DNA from: an uncultured Pelagibacteraceae bacterium | GTDB lineage: Bacteria; Pseudomonadota; Alphaproteobacteria; Pelagibacterales; AG-422-B15 | Assembly: GCA_902610585.1 (NCBI GenBank) | Contig: CACLWE010000009.1 | Location: 1 to 56,341, forward strand | DNA length: 56,341 nucleotides | Direction: 5' to 3' | Shown: positions 37,124-54,395 of the stretch, in pieces | How the letters are laid out: each line of letters begins with the position of its first letter | Numbering within the stretch: position 1 is the stretch's first letter | Program-made: the position numbers and the translations under genes | The notes under the pieces: generated by a model | What the model was told of the DNA's origin: nothing | The model's input: only the letters and a program-made list of their open reading frames with translations | Databases searched by the model: none

Positions 37124-37918
37124 ATGTTTAAAACAGACGATAACGTAATTAAAGCCTGTATGTTTATTTCAGGCCTTATATTCTTCGTTTATGGATGCAT
37201 TATGATGTTCAATTATGATTATATGATTGATCGATATCCAACATTCGAAGATAACTTAACTACAGAATTTTTCTTAAATTGGTTTGGAGCGGTTAATTTT
37301 GTAGCCTATGTAGGCATTCTATATATGGGTTTCAAAGGGTTAGAGAGAGCATTTTTTGCTTATGCACTACCTGTCGTTCTACTTCAATTAATATGGGTTG
37401 CGATGTCATTGCAGCTAAGCGGTGGAGAAAACTATACTGGTCTTTATGCATGGATAATTTTGTTTGTGCTATTAGCCATAGCAAGATTTAGAGCTGGTTA
37501 TCCACTTGCAATTGAGAAAGCTGGAACTCCGTTTGGAGTTACTGACAAAACAACTCAAATCATGGGATATATTGCAATTGCTGCAGTGCTGTTTAATGTT
37601 GTTTCTTACTTCATATATCCAGGTGGATTTATTGAGCAATCTCCGCTATTGGAGAGCAACCCTCAATCTGAACACAGTGTATTGGGAATAACTATGATCA
37701 ACATAGCTATACTAATTGCTCTTGTTTATCAGTTCAGAGCTGGACTAAGTGGAGTTTTAGTATCAATGAGTGCAGTTGCAGGAACGATGTTCTTTTGTGC
37801 AATGTTAGTTGGAAGTGTGACATTTCCCGATGGTGGTAACCCATTATTGGCATTTTTTATAATTCTAAATTTCATTGTATTTTTGACTATCTTTTTCAGA
37901 AACCAAAGTAATTTTTAG
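37124..37918 (+). CDS. Polytopic membrane protein, unknown (264 aa)
   Basis: Eight or so helices in two similar halves: residues 10-110 and 140-250 each contain about four helices. Polar loop YDYMIDRYPTFEDNLTTEFF lies early. A very strong ribosome site (AGGGGG, then TTATATG) stands out from the weak sites elsewhere in the window, suggesting high expression. The next gene also has a strong site and starts 10 bp later. No family recognised. Confidence 0.7.
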   Translation: MFKTDDNVIKACMFISGLIFFVYGCIMMFNYDYMIDRYPTFEDNLTTEFFLNWFGAVNFVAYVGILYMGFKGLERAFFAYALPVVLLQLIWVAMSLQLSGGENYTGLYAWIILFVLLAIARFRAGYPLAIEKAGTPFGVTDKTTQIMGYIAIAAVLFNVVSYFIYPGGFIEQSPLLESNPQSEHSVLGITMINIAILIALVYQFRAGLSGVLVSMSAVAGTMFFCAMLVGSVTFPDGGNPLLAFFIILNFIVFLTIFFRNQSNF

Positions 37919-37928
37919 GAGGAACAAA

Positions 37929-38348
37929 ATGATTAAAGTTGAAGACACAATAAGCAGAGTAATAATTTGTTTCTTAATAGTTTTATTTCTCTTTTATGGT
38001 TTTATGTTTATAGACAATGAGCCAGTATTAGCTTTTGCAGAGCGAATAGGAACAAATCCGAGCGATGTTGATGCAGCACATATTTTGCTGTTTGCAAATC
38101 TCGGGTGGGTTTATATAGTTTTTGCAGTAGGTTTTACTGCATGTTTACTTGCACCAATTGAACAATCTACAGTGTTTTTTAGAATGATGTTGGTTGGATC
38201 CTTTGTCACTTCTATAAGGCAAATTGTTTTATTTATGGGCGAAGATGGGGGCGCTAATCCAGTTCCTATGGTGGCTAGTATACTTGTCTTCATTCTGATG
38301 AATGTCTTGTACGACAGGGCAGGAATGAGAATTGGTAGAACATTTTAA
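37929..38348 (+). CDS. Small membrane protein, unknown (139 aa)
   Basis: Four helices (VIICFLIVLFLFYGFMFI, HILLFANLGWVYIVFAVGFTACLLA, FFRMMLVGSFVTSIRQIVLFM, VPMVASILVFILMNVLY). TAGGAGG, a near-perfect ribosome site, ends 7 bases before the ATG. Probably forms a unit with the 264-aa gene; a strong terminator follows. No family recognised. Confidence 0.7.
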   Translation: MIKVEDTISRVIICFLIVLFLFYGFMFIDNEPVLAFAERIGTNPSDVDAAHILLFANLGWVYIVFAVGFTACLLAPIEQSTVFFRMMLVGSFVTSIRQIVLFMGEDGGANPVPMVASILVFILMNVLYDRAGMRIGRTF

Positions 38349-38370
38349 ACATACTTAATCTATAAATTAA

Positions 38371-38409
38371 GGACCCGTTCAATTTATACTTGGACGGGTC
38401 TTTTTTTTT
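38371..38409 (+). terminator. Rho-independent terminator
   Basis: GACCCGTTCAA (38372-38382) pairs with TTGGACGGGTC (38390-38400), one T-G wobble, 7-base loop, followed by nine T. It ends the two-gene membrane protein unit. Confidence 0.93.
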
Positions 38410-38473
38410 ATAAAATCCTGATTTTTCCTCTTTTTTCTTATAATGATCCCAATATACAAATTACCTTAATGGA

Positions 38474-38556
38474 AATAAGAGAAGAACTTCCCCATTTATA
38501 TTTGGAAGGGTGGAGGATTAAATGAGGAAGTTCAGTCTTCTGTCTAGTTACTCAAT
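38474..38556 (-). ncRNA. Candidate Pho-regulated small RNA with anti-Shine-Dalgarno loop
   Basis: Leftward RNA predicted from a TATAAT at 38568-38563 to a T-rich stretch at about 38483-38473. It contains a 15-bp hairpin: arm GAACTTCCTCATTTA (38533-38519) with TAAATGGGGAAGTTC (38498-38484), one T-G wobble. The 20-base loop contains UCCUCCACCCUUCC, which can pair with ribosome-binding sites. C-rich CCUCC loops are known in alphaproteobacterial small RNAs (the cuckoo type), but I do not claim homology. No family match; no experimental support. Confidence 0.5.
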
Positions 38557-38562
38557 AATTAA

Positions 38563-38618
38563 ATTATAATTTTTAATTTTGTCATAAAAATTACAAGAAT
38601 ATTAAAATTTTATGACAG
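38563..38618 (-). promoter_or_regulatory. Leftward PhoB-type array and -10 box
   Basis: Read leftward: CTGTCAT, AAAA, TTTTAAT, ATTC, TTGTAAT, TTTT, ATGACAA, then 10 bases, then TATAAT. Four 7-base half-sites repeat at an exact 11-base period. The 10-base gap to the -10 is the same as upstream of pstS. The outer part also makes a 10-bp inverted repeat TGTCATAAAA/TTTTATGACA. Confidence 0.55.
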
Positions 38619-38634
38619 ATTTCTAGAAAGTATG

Positions 38635-38668
38635 GCTTAACAAATCTTTCATAAATTATTGGTAATGT
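38635..38668 (+). promoter_or_regulatory. Possible rightward Pho box of plcP
   Basis: GCTTAAC (38635-38641), AAAT, CTTTCAT (38646-38652), 10 bases, then TAATGT (38663-38668). Same 7+4 and 10-base spacing as the other arrays but with weaker half-sites and -10. It lies 30 bases before the plcP ATG. The leftward array at 38563-38618 could also serve this gene. Confidence 0.35.
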
Positions 38669-38698
38669 AATGAAGATTGATTCTTTTTTACCAAATTT

Positions 38699-39517
38699 AT
38701 GGTCAACGAAAAAAATAATGTTATTCCTCTCTTAAAATATCGTTCCATATTTATTTCAGATATTCATTTAGGGTCAAAAGGCTGTCAAGCTGAACAGTTG
38801 CTTGATTTTTTAAAAAATACCAGATCAGATTACCTATACTTAGTTGGAGATATTATAGATGGGTGGCGACTTAAAAATAGATGGTACTGGCCACAAAGTC
38901 ACAGTGATGTAATACAAAAAATTCTAAGAAAAGCACGACATGGAACTAAAGTGTTTTATGTATCAGGAAATCATGATGAGCTTGTTAGAAAATTTGTGCC
39001 AATAACACTAGGCGAAATTAGAGTAGTTAATGAAATCAAACATAAGACAGTAGATGGATCTGAATATCTTATACTGCATGGAGACAAATTTGACTCAATT
39101 ATCAATATCGCACCCTGGTTAGCCCATCTTGGCGCTAGCGCATACGATTTAGCTTTATGGCTAAATAGAAGATTTAATCAATTAAGATTATTATTGGGTT
39201 TGAAATATTGGTCGCTTTCAAAGTATCTAAAATTAAAAGTAAAAAATGCTGTTTCTTACATTAATAAGTACGAAGAAATAGTTGCAGGTTATGCAAAAAA
39301 GAAAAATCTAAAAGGAGTTATTTGCGGACATATTCACCATGCTTCACATCGAATAATAAATGGAGTTCATTACTATAATGATGGGGACTGGGTAGAAAGT
39401 TGCTCCTTTATGATAGAAAATTTTGATGGATCAATGGAAATTCTTTTCTGGAAAGATATCGCTGAAAAGTATGAAATTATCAACAAACATAAGGACTCCG
39501 TAAAGGTATTAAGTTAA
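38699..39517 (+). CDS. plcP: PlcP-like phospholipid phosphodiesterase
   Basis: 272-aa calcineurin-like metallophosphoesterase, related to LpxH. Metal motifs: DIH (21-23), GDIID (50-54), GNHDE (90-94), LHGDK and GHIHH near residue 207. WRLKNRWYWPQSHSDVIQKILRKARHGTKVFYVSGNHDE is the PlcP-type pattern. PlcP cuts the head group from phospholipids to give diacylglycerol during phosphate starvation (shown in Sinorhizobium and marine bacteria). The adjacent glycosyltransferase and the pst/pho block support this role over lipid A synthesis. Confidence 0.85.
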   Translation: MVNEKNNVIPLLKYRSIFISDIHLGSKGCQAEQLLDFLKNTRSDYLYLVGDIIDGWRLKNRWYWPQSHSDVIQKILRKARHGTKVFYVSGNHDELVRKFVPITLGEIRVVNEIKHKTVDGSEYLILHGDKFDSIINIAPWLAHLGASAYDLALWLNRRFNQLRLLLGLKYWSLSKYLKLKVKNAVSYINKYEEIVAGYAKKKNLKGVICGHIHHASHRIINGVHYYNDGDWVESCSFMIENFDGSMEILFWKDIAEKYEIINKHKDSVKVLS

Positions 39518-40525
39518 TTGAAAATACTCATCGCATCAGACGCATGGCTCCCTCAAATAAATGGTGTTGTTAGAACTTATCAAACACTTGGTGATGAACT
39601 TACAAGTCAAGGACATGAGGTTAGGTACATAACTCCAGATAAATTTATTACAATTCCACTGATTATTTATCCTGAAATAAAACTTGCGATTAATCATTGG
39701 TTCAAAATTGGCGTGATCATTGAGAAGTTTAAGCCTGATTTTATACACGTTGCTACAGAGGGACCTATTGGCTTAGCGGTTAGGAATTATTGTTCAAAGA
39801 ATAATTATGCGTTTACAACCTCGTATTGTACAAAATTTCCTGAATATATAAACACGATGGCTAAGATACCTGTATCTTTTACATATAAAATTTTGAAATG
39901 GTTTCACAAAAATTCTAGCGCAGTAATGGTATCCTCTAATTCAATTATAGATGAACTTAATTCACATGGAATTAAAAGGACAGTTAAATGGTCCAGGGGC
40001 GTTGATATAAAAGCTTTTAATCCGAAGAACAAGATTGATCTCAATTTAGAAAAACCAATTTATTTATATGTAGGAAGAATATCTAAGGAAAAATCATTAG
40101 AAGATTTTCTTAAATTAAATTTAAAAGGCACAAAACTACTTGTAGGTGATGGACCCTCTAAGAAAAAATTAGAAAAAAAATATACTGATGCAGTTTTTGT
40201 AGGAGCGAAGAAAGGAAATGAACTGGCCCAGTACTATGCATCTTCAGATATCTTTGTATTTCCAAGTAAAACAGATACGTTTGGAATGGTCATGATCGAG
40301 GCTCTCGCCAGTGGACTTCCTGTGGCCGCATATCCTGTTCCAGGTCCAATTGATGTTTTTGATAATTTTAAATATAATTGTCTTGATCATAATTTAATTA
40401 ATTCAATTGATAAGGCGAGAAAAGTGAGTCGTACAGATTGTATAAATTATAGTAAAAAGTTTGATTGGCAGGAGGTTTCTAAGCTGTTTTTGTCACATCA
40501 AACTGTATCACGCGTTGCAAAATAA
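39518..40525 (+). CDS. Agt-like GT4 glycosyltransferase (glycolipid synthesis)
   Basis: 335-aa GT4 enzyme. N-terminal SDAWLPQINGVVRTYQTLGDELTSQGHEV is typical of diacylglycerol glucosyltransferases. Donor motif: LLVGDGPSKKKLEKKY, then SSDIFVFPSKTDTFGMVMIEALASGLPVAAYPVPGP. Start is TTG at 39518, directly after the plcP stop. In related bacteria the PlcP-Agt pair replaces phospholipids by sugar lipids under phosphate limitation; here the substrate sugar is unknown. Confidence 0.85.
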   Translation: MKILIASDAWLPQINGVVRTYQTLGDELTSQGHEVRYITPDKFITIPLIIYPEIKLAINHWFKIGVIIEKFKPDFIHVATEGPIGLAVRNYCSKNNYAFTTSYCTKFPEYINTMAKIPVSFTYKILKWFHKNSSAVMVSSNSIIDELNSHGIKRTVKWSRGVDIKAFNPKNKIDLNLEKPIYLYVGRISKEKSLEDFLKLNLKGTKLLVGDGPSKKKLEKKYTDAVFVGAKKGNELAQYYASSDIFVFPSKTDTFGMVMIEALASGLPVAAYPVPGPIDVFDNFKYNCLDHNLINSIDKARKVSRTDCINYSKKFDWQEVSKLFLSHQTVSRVAK

Positions 40526-40691: not shown

Positions 40692-40807
40692 TAATTTAGC
40701 TGTAACAAAATTTTAATAGACCTTAATAATTGTTAATATTTACTTAACTAAAATTTTATGAAATCTCATGTATGACTTCACTTATTAATTAATTAATGGA
40801 GTGATAT

Positions 40808-41740: not shown

Positions 41741-41777
41741 TTAACTTTTTTTAATCCTTTCAAGTTAATTGATCATG

Positions 41778-41813
41778 ATAACCAGAGTGCAAATAATGCA
41801 CTCTGGTTATTTT
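41778..41813 (+). terminator. Strong hairpin terminator after the porin
   Basis: ATAACCAGAGTGC (41778-41790) pairs perfectly with GCACTCTGGTTAT (41798-41810) over a 7-base loop and is followed by TTT and AT-rich sequence. A 13-bp perfect stem, the most stable in the window. Confidence 0.9.
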
Positions 41814-41849
41814 AATAAACATGTAACAATCTTGTAATATTAATAAGTG

Positions 41850-53017: not shown

Positions 53018-53709
53018 TGAGTGAACACATAGTTTCATCTTATGATGAGCAATTAGATTTAATAAATAGTACATTAATTAAAATGGGAGGTTTGGTTGAA
53101 ACACAGCTTCACAATTCTCTTGTTGCTTTGGGTGATAAAGATACTGCTTTTGCAGAAGAAATTTTAAGAGATGATAATAAAATAGATGCCTTAGAAAAGG
53201 AAATTGATGCTTTAACATACAAAGTAATTGCAATGAGGCAACCGCTTGCTAATGATTTAAGAACCGTACTTTCGGCACTAAGCATTGCAAACGATCTCGA
53301 GAGAATGGGTGATCACGCTACCAATATTGCTAAAAGAGTTGCAAATGTAAAAATAAATATGCCCGACACGCCGGTTTCAGAAATTGTCAATATGGGTGAG
53401 AACGTTCAAAGAATGATAAAAAATGTTTTAGATGCCTTCGTTCAAAAATCAGATACGCTAGCAATTAATGCTTGGGATTTAGACGGCGATATTGATGAAT
53501 TGTATTTATCAATTTACAGGGATCTTCTTAAGACGATGGCAGAAGACCCAGATACAATTACAGGCTGTTCACACTTATTGTCGATTGCTAAAAACATAGA
53601 GAGAATAGGAGATTATGTTCAAAATATTGCTGAAGACATTCACTTCATTACAACTGGTCAAGCCTTAGAACGTAAGTCGGAAAAAAGAATTAAGTGGGAA
53701 AAGGTGTAA
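53017..53709 (+). CDS. phoU: PhoU phosphate regulator
   Basis: 230-aa helical protein that links PstSCAB to PhoR and keeps the Pho regulon off at high phosphate. Two three-helix bundles with the E/DxxxD metal motifs: DDNKIDALEKEIDALTYKVIAMRQPLANDLRTVLSALSIANDLERMGDHATNIAKR, then a repeat DLDGDIDELYLSIYRDLLKTM...ADIERIGDYVQNIAE-like (NIERIGDYVQNIAEDIHFIT). Coupled to pstB and phoB through one-base overlaps. Confidence 0.96.
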   Translation: MSEHIVSSYDEQLDLINSTLIKMGGLVETQLHNSLVALGDKDTAFAEEILRDDNKIDALEKEIDALTYKVIAMRQPLANDLRTVLSALSIANDLERMGDHATNIAKRVANVKINMPDTPVSEIVNMGENVQRMIKNVLDAFVQKSDTLAINAWDLDGDIDELYLSIYRDLLKTMAEDPDTITGCSHLLSIAKNIERIGDYVQNIAEDIHFITTGQALERKSEKRIKWEKV

Positions 53710-54395
53710 TGAAACCTAGAATCCTAGTAATTGAGGATGAAGTCTCAATAGTTGAATTATTAAAATACAATCTCACAGCTAGTGGATTTGATGTAGACGT
53801 ATGCTTTGATGGCGATAGCGCATTGGATAGTATATTTGGTGATATTAAATACGATCTCATAATCGTTGACTGGATGCTCCCAAATATTTCTGGGTTAGAA
53901 TTGTGTAGACGAGTACGTAAAGATAAAACTACAAAGAACATTCCTTTAATTATGCTCACAGCTAAAGGAGAAGAAGAAGATAAATTAAGAGCATTTGAAA
54001 CTGAAATTGATGACTACATAACAAAACCATTTTCAGTCAATGAGTTAGTAGCAAGAATTAAAGCAGTACTTAAACGCTTAAGACCTATTTTTTATAATGA
54101 AGTTCTTACTTATAAGGGAATTCAATTAGATGTTTCAACGCATCGTGTCACCAGGGATAAAACAGAAATAAGTCTTGGACCTACGGAATTTAATTTATTG
54201 CGTTTTTTAATGGAAAATCAAGGTAAAGTATTTTCAAGACAACAATTATTAGATTATGTATGGACGACAAGTCCATATGTCGAGCCTAGAACAGTTGATG
54301 TTCATATCAGAAGATTAAGAAAAGCATTAAACGAAGGATTTGAATACGACCCAATTAGGACAATTAGATCTGCTGGATATTCTCTTGGTATATGA
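53709..54395 (+). CDS. phoB: PhoB response regulator
   Basis: 228 aa from ATG 53709, which overlaps the phoU stop; an earlier in-frame ATG would lie in phoU. Receiver domain with phospho-acceptor D54 (LIIVDWMLPNISG), LTAKGEEEDKL and YITKPFSVNEL. C-terminal winged helix (LGPTEFNLLRFLMENQGKVFSRQQLLDYVW; VEPRTVDVHIRRLRKAL) binds the Pho boxes. It is the expected activator of pstS, plcP and probably of the sites listed in this window. Confidence 0.96.
   Translation: MKPRILVIEDEVSIVELLKYNLTASGFDVDVCFDGDSALDSIFGDIKYDLIIVDWMLPNISGLELCRRVRKDKTTKNIPLIMLTAKGEEEDKLRAFETEIDDYITKPFSVNELVARIKAVLKRLRPIFYNEVLTYKGIQLDVSTHRVTRDKTEISLGPTEFNLLRFLMENQGKVFSRQQLLDYVWTTSPYVEPRTVDVHIRRLRKALNEGFEYDPIRTIRSAGYSLGI

Follow-up and report, generated by a model that had tools for sequence, protein, structure and literature searches.

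The CcsR/cuckoo RNAs of Rhodobacter are short hairpins with C-rich loops, and they occur in arrays made with CcaF1, an RNA-binding protein of the DUF1127 family. Staphylococcal RNAIII and RsaE likewise have C-rich loops, which pair with Shine-Dalgarno (SD) sites without a need for Hfq. RNAIII is named in the part of PMC3927594 available to us, and that text and the available part of PMC10746234 describe anti-Shine-Dalgarno loops in the rhizobial alpha-r14/NfeR1 and SmelA075-SmelA099 small RNAs and place NfeR1 under a nutrient-stress regulator. EsrL of E. coli is reported as a phosphate-induced, PhoB-linked small RNA in the accessible portion of PMC10294691, where no binding of PhoB upstream of esrL was detected in K-12.

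We analysed a 56,341-base stretch of SAR11 DNA (contig C9, hereafter the window) from a genome of 1.21 Mb in 25 contigs that is 77% complete, and we read one of its loci, with a probability of roughly 0.62, as the gene of a PhoB-driven small RNA that folds into a hairpin whose loop blocks SD sites. The putative RNA resembles the Rhodobacter CcsR/cuckoo RNAs in being a short hairpin with a C-rich loop; unlike those arrays it is present in a single copy, and DUF1127 (PF06568) was found in none of the 43 genomes of its genus by a search that as a control detected it in only 1 of 14 named genomes. The C-rich, SD-pairing loops of staphylococcal RNAIII and RsaE are comparable, and we claim no homology to them. 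Like the alpha-r14/NfeR1 and SmelA075-SmelA099 RNAs, as far as the consulted parts of their descriptions go, it is alphaproteobacterial and carries a C-rich anti-Shine-Dalgarno motif in a hairpin loop, and unlike those RNAs, whose three or four hairpins (three in alpha-r14/NfeR1) all carry CCUCCUCCC, it has one hairpin with CCUCCACCC. It is comparable to EsrL, as partially consulted, in being a PhoB-linked candidate; the host differs and homology is again not claimed. For this RNA Rfam 15 gave no family at the gathering score, a tRNA being its only match in the window; the best match in the RNA region, rli60, reached 18.2 bits, where its gathering score is 60. The literature searched yielded no report of it, and the portions of PMC2704228, PMC3840354 and PMC4796936 at hand do not mention it. 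We class it as an undescribed PhoB-driven anti-Shine-Dalgarno sRNA candidate, probably Hfq-independent: a candidate of a known kind, so far found in one SAR11 genus only, whose promoter evidence is unusually coherent.

Genomic setting and the PhoB-type promoter

The features of the locus, with conservation counted over 20 copies, are as follows.

38579-38618, minus strand: PhoB-type box, four 7-base half-sites at an 11-base period reading leftward, 33 of 40 columns invariant
38618-38612, minus strand: half-site 1, CTGTCAT, 7 of 7 positions matching
38607-38601, minus strand: half-site 2, TTTTAAT, 5 of 7
38596-38590, minus strand: half-site 3, TTGTAAT, 6 of 7
38585-38579, minus strand: half-site 4, ATGACAA, 4 of 7 (weak)
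38568-38563, minus strand: predicted -10 hexamer TATAAT, 10 bases after the fourth half-site
38546-38553, minus strand: GAGUAACU, putative start of the RNA (5' end), invariant in 20 of 20
38484-38533, minus strand: hairpin, a stem of 15 pairs (one of them U-G) closing a 20-base loop, from folding, stem survey and pair counts
38533-38519 and 38498-38484, minus strand: hairpin arms, 15 pairs
38499-38518, minus strand: loop AUCCUCCACCCUUCCAAAUA, with the anti-Shine-Dalgarno core CCUCCAC in 20 of 20
38469-38483, minus strand: tail, U-rich but not continuously so, which may act as a weak terminator or be a site of processing; invariant in 9 of 19 columns
38522-38569, plus strand: opposite-strand mini-ORF MRKFSLLSSYSIIKL, 15 codons, with SD GGTGGAGG at 38509-38516
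38699-39517, plus strand: PlcP-like metallophosphoesterase (Pfam PF00149), divergent neighbour of the RNA
39518-40525, plus strand: Agt-like GT4 glycosyltransferase (Pfam PF00534, PF13439)
53694-54395, plus strand: phoB, presumed activator (TIGR02154, 301 bits, above the cut-off of 296)

The candidate RNA stands head-to-head with the PlcP/Agt-like pair in a region that also has ppk, phoR, pst, phoU and phoB. Rightward come the PlcP-like, GT4, porin and polyphosphate kinase genes and an exopolyphosphatase-like ORF (the last assigned by eye), followed by a PhoR-like kinase, a PstS-like protein, three ORFs of pst type assigned by eye (two permeases and an ATPase), and finally phoU and phoB. PhoR had its best match to TIGR02966 (290 bits, below the cut-off of 334) and the PstS-like protein matches TIGR02136, also below cut-off; both phoB and phoR, which a Pho regulon promoter requires of its genome, are present. 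The names PlcP and Agt rest here on domain and context, their NCBIfam matches being below cut-off. The top such match of the 39518 gene was monoglucosyldiacylglycerol synthase, and the 38699 gene is called PlcP from its context and from PMC4796936, in whose available part PlcP beside an Agt glycosyltransferase is SAR11's known lipid-renovation pair. The genes beside the candidate RNA probably serve the replacement of membrane phosphorus. On the other side, a tandem pair of membrane-protein genes without a Pfam or NCBIfam match occupies 37124-38348 (plus strand), and a clear intrinsic terminator of these genes, with a 14-bp stem and a T run, lies at 38369-38403 (plus strand).

The earlier note had described four minus-strand 7-base half-sites at an exact 11-base period ending 10 bases before TATAAT, and both the sequence and scoring against the pattern C, T, G, T, C/A, A, T/C bore this out. 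Half-sites 1-3 score 18 of 21, the maximum over all positions and both strands of the window, equalled only by the pstS box, and 1 of 2,000 dinucleotide shuffles of the 350-bp intergenic region (38349-38698) reached this value. The same DNA scored rightward gives 12, with a top rightward register of 14 in 38440-38720. When that note likened the box to the one upstream of pstS, it was right about the repeats and only roughly right about the spacing, as the 18-scoring register of the pstS box has by our own count 8 bases between the fourth half-site and TATGAT, versus 10 here. Because the boxes of pstS and the porin carry CTGTAAT and CTGTAAC, respectively, when read toward their own genes, the box at 38579-38618 most likely drives leftward transcription. 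Its anatomy, 11-base direct repeats and then a -10 some 10 bases further in the direction of transcription, is that of a Pho promoter. A generic sigma-70 scan found zero leftward promoters here, which we counted against the small-RNA reading; such a scan would overlook a Pho promoter lacking a -35. plcP may have weaker rightward half-sites of its own, putatively from 38635 (GCTTAAC, 4 of 7, and CTTTCAT, 6 of 7).

A conserved hairpin with a C-rich loop

Folding and a stem survey agreed with the earlier claim of a 15-bp hairpin with one wobble and a 20-base loop, here UCCUCCACCC, about 22 bases after the predicted start; the stem begins 20 bases past the onset of the conserved GAGTAACT at 38553 and some 22 past the start predicted then. 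The 64-base hairpin stretch has a folding energy of -18.4 kcal/mol (z -5.55), which 0 of 200 shuffles equalled, and the 80-base RNA gave z -2.78 (0 of 200 shuffles); a 101-base fold reached a z of only -1.78, with 12 of 200 shuffles as good, and was counted against the reading. Among all uninterrupted stems of at least 14 pairs with loops of 3-30 bases in the window, this hairpin alone has a loop longer than 7 bases, the others having 3-7. The folding predicts that CCUCC is accessible in the loop, as in an anti-Shine-Dalgarno sRNA. An intrinsic terminator is not clearly present just past the stem, a point against the reading, and a simple scan limited to loops of 3-8 bases found no minus-strand terminator here; an RNA ending just past the hairpin would be roughly 70-90 nt long, and one reaching the hairpin at 38403-38369, which likely also bounds the leftward RNA on its outer side, would be up to about 185 nt.

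For the comparison of copies, collapsing 40 loci left 20 distinct upstream regions from as many genomes, 17 of them close and 3 diverged. This comparison backed the leftward PhoB-type promoter and conserved hairpin proposed in the earlier note. The -10 hexamer is TATAAT in 13 copies, TATAGT in 2, and TACAAT, TAGAAT, TATTAT, TATCAT and TATGAT in one each, so that all 7 departures fall at positions 3-5 and T1, A2 and T6 are invariant in 20 of 20 (TANNNT). Such a distribution would have a chance of 1/128 if positions were equally free and changes independent, and it is to be read with the caution that these variable bases double as the final codon of the plus-strand mini-ORF. Invariant columns numbered 2 of 9 in the discriminator, 8 of 8 in GAGTAACT, 11 of 15 and 13 of 15 in the stem arms and 8 of 13 in the 5' part of the loop, and the loop core CCTCCAC was present in all 20 copies; a variable discriminator followed by the fully invariant GAGTAACT is the pattern expected at an RNA start. 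Between the 17 close and 3 diverged copies, identity was 100% in GAGTAACT, 87-88% in the stem and 83% in the 5' loop, and fell to 42% in the remaining leader, 48% in the 3' loop, 58% in the tail and 24% in the DNA beyond it. The Pho box and the 5' region of plcP stood at 90%, and the hairpin is not conserved above either, which was again counted against.

Covariation, the check proposed earlier, was run on nine distinct sequences and came out weak without failing. The bases were paired in 99.2% of cells; the outer GC pair is AU in two sequences and GU in a third, one A-U became G-U, and the U-G pair became C-G in three sequences and was broken in one copy (A opposite G). Of 14 pairs, 11 never vary and 1 shows a two-sided change; covariation did not clearly exceed that of shuffles, 50 of 500 of which matched its score and 299 of 500 its count of pairs changed on both sides, and this was counted against the reading. 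Those one-sided changes that preserve pairing yield G-U on the minus strand, or turn U-G into C-G; read on the plus strand, such a G-U becomes an A-C mismatch. One copy has a stem deletion together with CACTATT in the loop. The pair counts agree with the structure and do not prove it.

Distribution and linkage to plcP

Strong matches to model R1 (86.7-109.3 bits) occurred in 20 of the 43 genus genomes, and plcP was found in the identical 20; among the more complete genomes both were present in 5 of 10. In an order-wide sample of 297 genomes (two draws treated as one sample from their equal size and common handles), plcP was found in 146, of which 126 lie outside the genus, and under stricter filters no genome outside the genus, with or without plcP, had a strong match, two of the 126 (G215 and G216) having weak ones. 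Ten genomes of the family's other genera, under the same kind of stricter filters, likewise gave no strong match and one weak one (G089). We also obtained weak matches of 20.6-26 bits in G015, a genus genome without plcP, and in G089, G215 and G216; these were taken as chance because those of G015, G215 and G216 lie inside long ORFs and that of G089 just past an ORF end, and their upstream Pho scores do not exceed 14. Among viral pattern matches, 80 of 86 were scanned with the model, and contigs L093 and L130 had weak matches of 24.6 bits.

The genes at 37.1-38.3 kb, named earlier as example targets, were not borne out as conserved ones, as 5 of the 15 loci read have another left gene. By eye, 10 of these loci carry a tandem membrane-protein pair, a divergent version of the 37.1-38.3 kb genes, 3 a ZnuA-like gene and 2 something else. 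The other five loci comprise our own and L022, L025 and L037, which have the 37929 gene by BLAST, and L039, whose left side is unread. Since the left neighbours differ and co-occurrence with plcP is constant, the RNA travels with plcP and not with the left genes. In three genus genomes without a plcP match (G002, G009 and G027), the left flank runs on without the hairpin, the join having been read in L018 and L019 and taken from a BLAST match alone in L020. Of 18 upstream regions from other SAR11 genera, 15 (L195-L209) have plcP divergent from what by eye is a diacylglycerol-kinase-like gene, with one short common intergenic region, and inspection by eye of 330 bases in each showed no such hairpin. 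Searches of whole genomes with the model likewise yielded no strong match in these relatives.

Proposed mode of action and alternative readings

If the locus does encode a small RNA, PhoB phosphorylated in phosphate starvation would bind the leftward box and bring RNA polymerase to the TANNNT -10, and the RNA would be made along with the lipid-renovation and phosphate-uptake genes, as promoter anatomy suggests, starting near GAGUAACU. Folding and conservation support a single long hairpin with CCUCCACC exposed in its 20-base loop, and a loop that presents CCUCCACC is able to base-pair with SD sites in the manner of alpha-r14/NfeR1, as the consulted parts of the sources describe it. The loop would pair with GGAGG-type SD sites on target mRNAs and block their translation, a plausible mode of action. 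Hfq (PF17209), the mark of an Hfq-dependent trans-acting sRNA, was found in 0 of the 43 genus genomes (53-100% complete), and the same search detected it in only 5 of 14 named control genomes, E. coli and Caulobacter included. The result counted against the small-RNA reading; because Hfq was not found in the genus, pairing would depend on the exposed C-rich loop and the stable stem.

The search for targets gave leads and no convincing target, which counted against the reading. The second left gene has AGGAGGA, a 6-bp match to UCCUCC. In the RNA's own genome (77% complete), GTGGAGG-N(3-10)-ATG occurred at 12 places, none a convincing target: nine lie in same-strand stop-to-stop frames of at least 200 codons, one is the hairpin itself, and two precede ORFs of 16 and 18 codons. 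Across the 43 genomes, the listed matches to GGGTGGAGG and GGTGGAGG-N-ATG came from genomes with and without the RNA, and several of those listed are by eye Gly-Gly codons. A duplex ranking of 60 window ORFs put the 28670 ORF first and phoU (53017) second, ahead of the left gene (37929), then phoB, then the porin; pstA came tenth. Starts were picked by a crude rule, and strong SDs score well by construction, so the ranking is a lead only. A fuller picture, in which a PhoB-induced, Hfq-independent anti-Shine-Dalgarno RNA in the lipid-renovation cassette of one SAR11 lineage damps strong-SD mRNAs and saves ribosome capacity, is tentative and on balance doubtful. If true, ribosome capacity, a major phosphorus sink, would be spared while the membrane is rebuilt under phosphate lack, a post-transcriptional arm tied to membrane lipid renovation would be added to the phosphate response of these abundant ocean bacteria, and the RNA would exemplify anti-Shine-Dalgarno action without Hfq.

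The earlier statement that no coding sequence explains the hairpin was partly right, and it missed GGAGG-5 nt-ATG and the 15-codon ORF on the plus strand, whose overlap with the hairpin counts against the small-RNA reading. There the hairpin reads GGTGGAGGATTAAATG, and a rightward RNA would display GGTGGAGG in the loop and the ATG in the stem, forming a mini-ORF or a leader in which the hairpin governs the start of translation. GGAGG-(4 or 5 nt)-ATG is indeed found in 20 of 20 copies, and the plus-strand stem forms in 19 of 20, slightly better than the minus-strand stem in the diverged copies. We consider this reading quite unlikely, because no DNA is conserved for a rightward promoter, the left flank where it would lie being unrelated between lineages, and because the ORF is not conserved as protein: it is 15 codons long in 13 copies, 14 in a single copy, 17 in another three and 7 in the last three, its end frame is altered in 3 copies besides those with 7 codons, and codons 5-10 are wholly unchanged in 17 copies, synonymous sites included, with the following codons varying freely. 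The Pho box is oriented oppositely, the G-U pairs of the minus strand turn into A-C mismatches, and the plus-strand fold of 106 bases, a longer stretch than the minus-strand ones compared, gives a z of -0.59.

A Pho box that serves plcP only, or both directions, with the leftward promoter unused and the hairpin ending stray leftward transcription and so insulating the left genes, is unlikely. The plcP clusters of other marine bacteria have Pho boxes, as the available part of PMC4796936 reports, and the sigma-70 scan gave a rightward match overlapping the box (TTGTCA-18-TAAAAT, 10 of 12); this was a single match, under the shuffle mean of 2.2, and the box scores 12 rightward versus 18 leftward. 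A terminator, moreover, needs neither a conserved C-rich loop core nor a conserved GAGTAACT, and the 3-7 base loops of the window's other long stems differ from this one. That the hairpin is a DNA element, a recombination or insertion site edging a mobile plcP cassette, seems very unlikely: homology of the window to two plcP-less loci does end 5-6 bases past the stem, and left neighbours do vary among lineages, but the genus genomes have no second strong copy, apart from the RNA itself the model scores only weakly in the window (23.5 bits at the same place on the opposite strand, 12.8 bits at 38361-38420), no transposase or integrase was seen by eye in the ORFs listed across 34.0-56.3 kb, and the promoter pattern and loop core would be left unexplained. 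The small-RNA gene remains our preferred reading.

Two further 11-base-phased sites were seen to the right. On the plus strand at 40700-40728, roughly 100 bases ahead of the porin gene (40808), lies a PhoB-type box CTGTAAC-4-TTTTAAT-4-CTTAATA (7, 5 and 3 of 7) whose first 22 bases closely resemble the sRNA box, and from this sequence the porin may be Pho-regulated. The other, at 41810-41838 (plus strand; TTTTAAT, ATGTAAC, TTGTAAT with 5, 6 and 6 of 7), closely follows a hairpin of 14-15 bp (41777-41811) and lies just ahead of the ORF at 41847.
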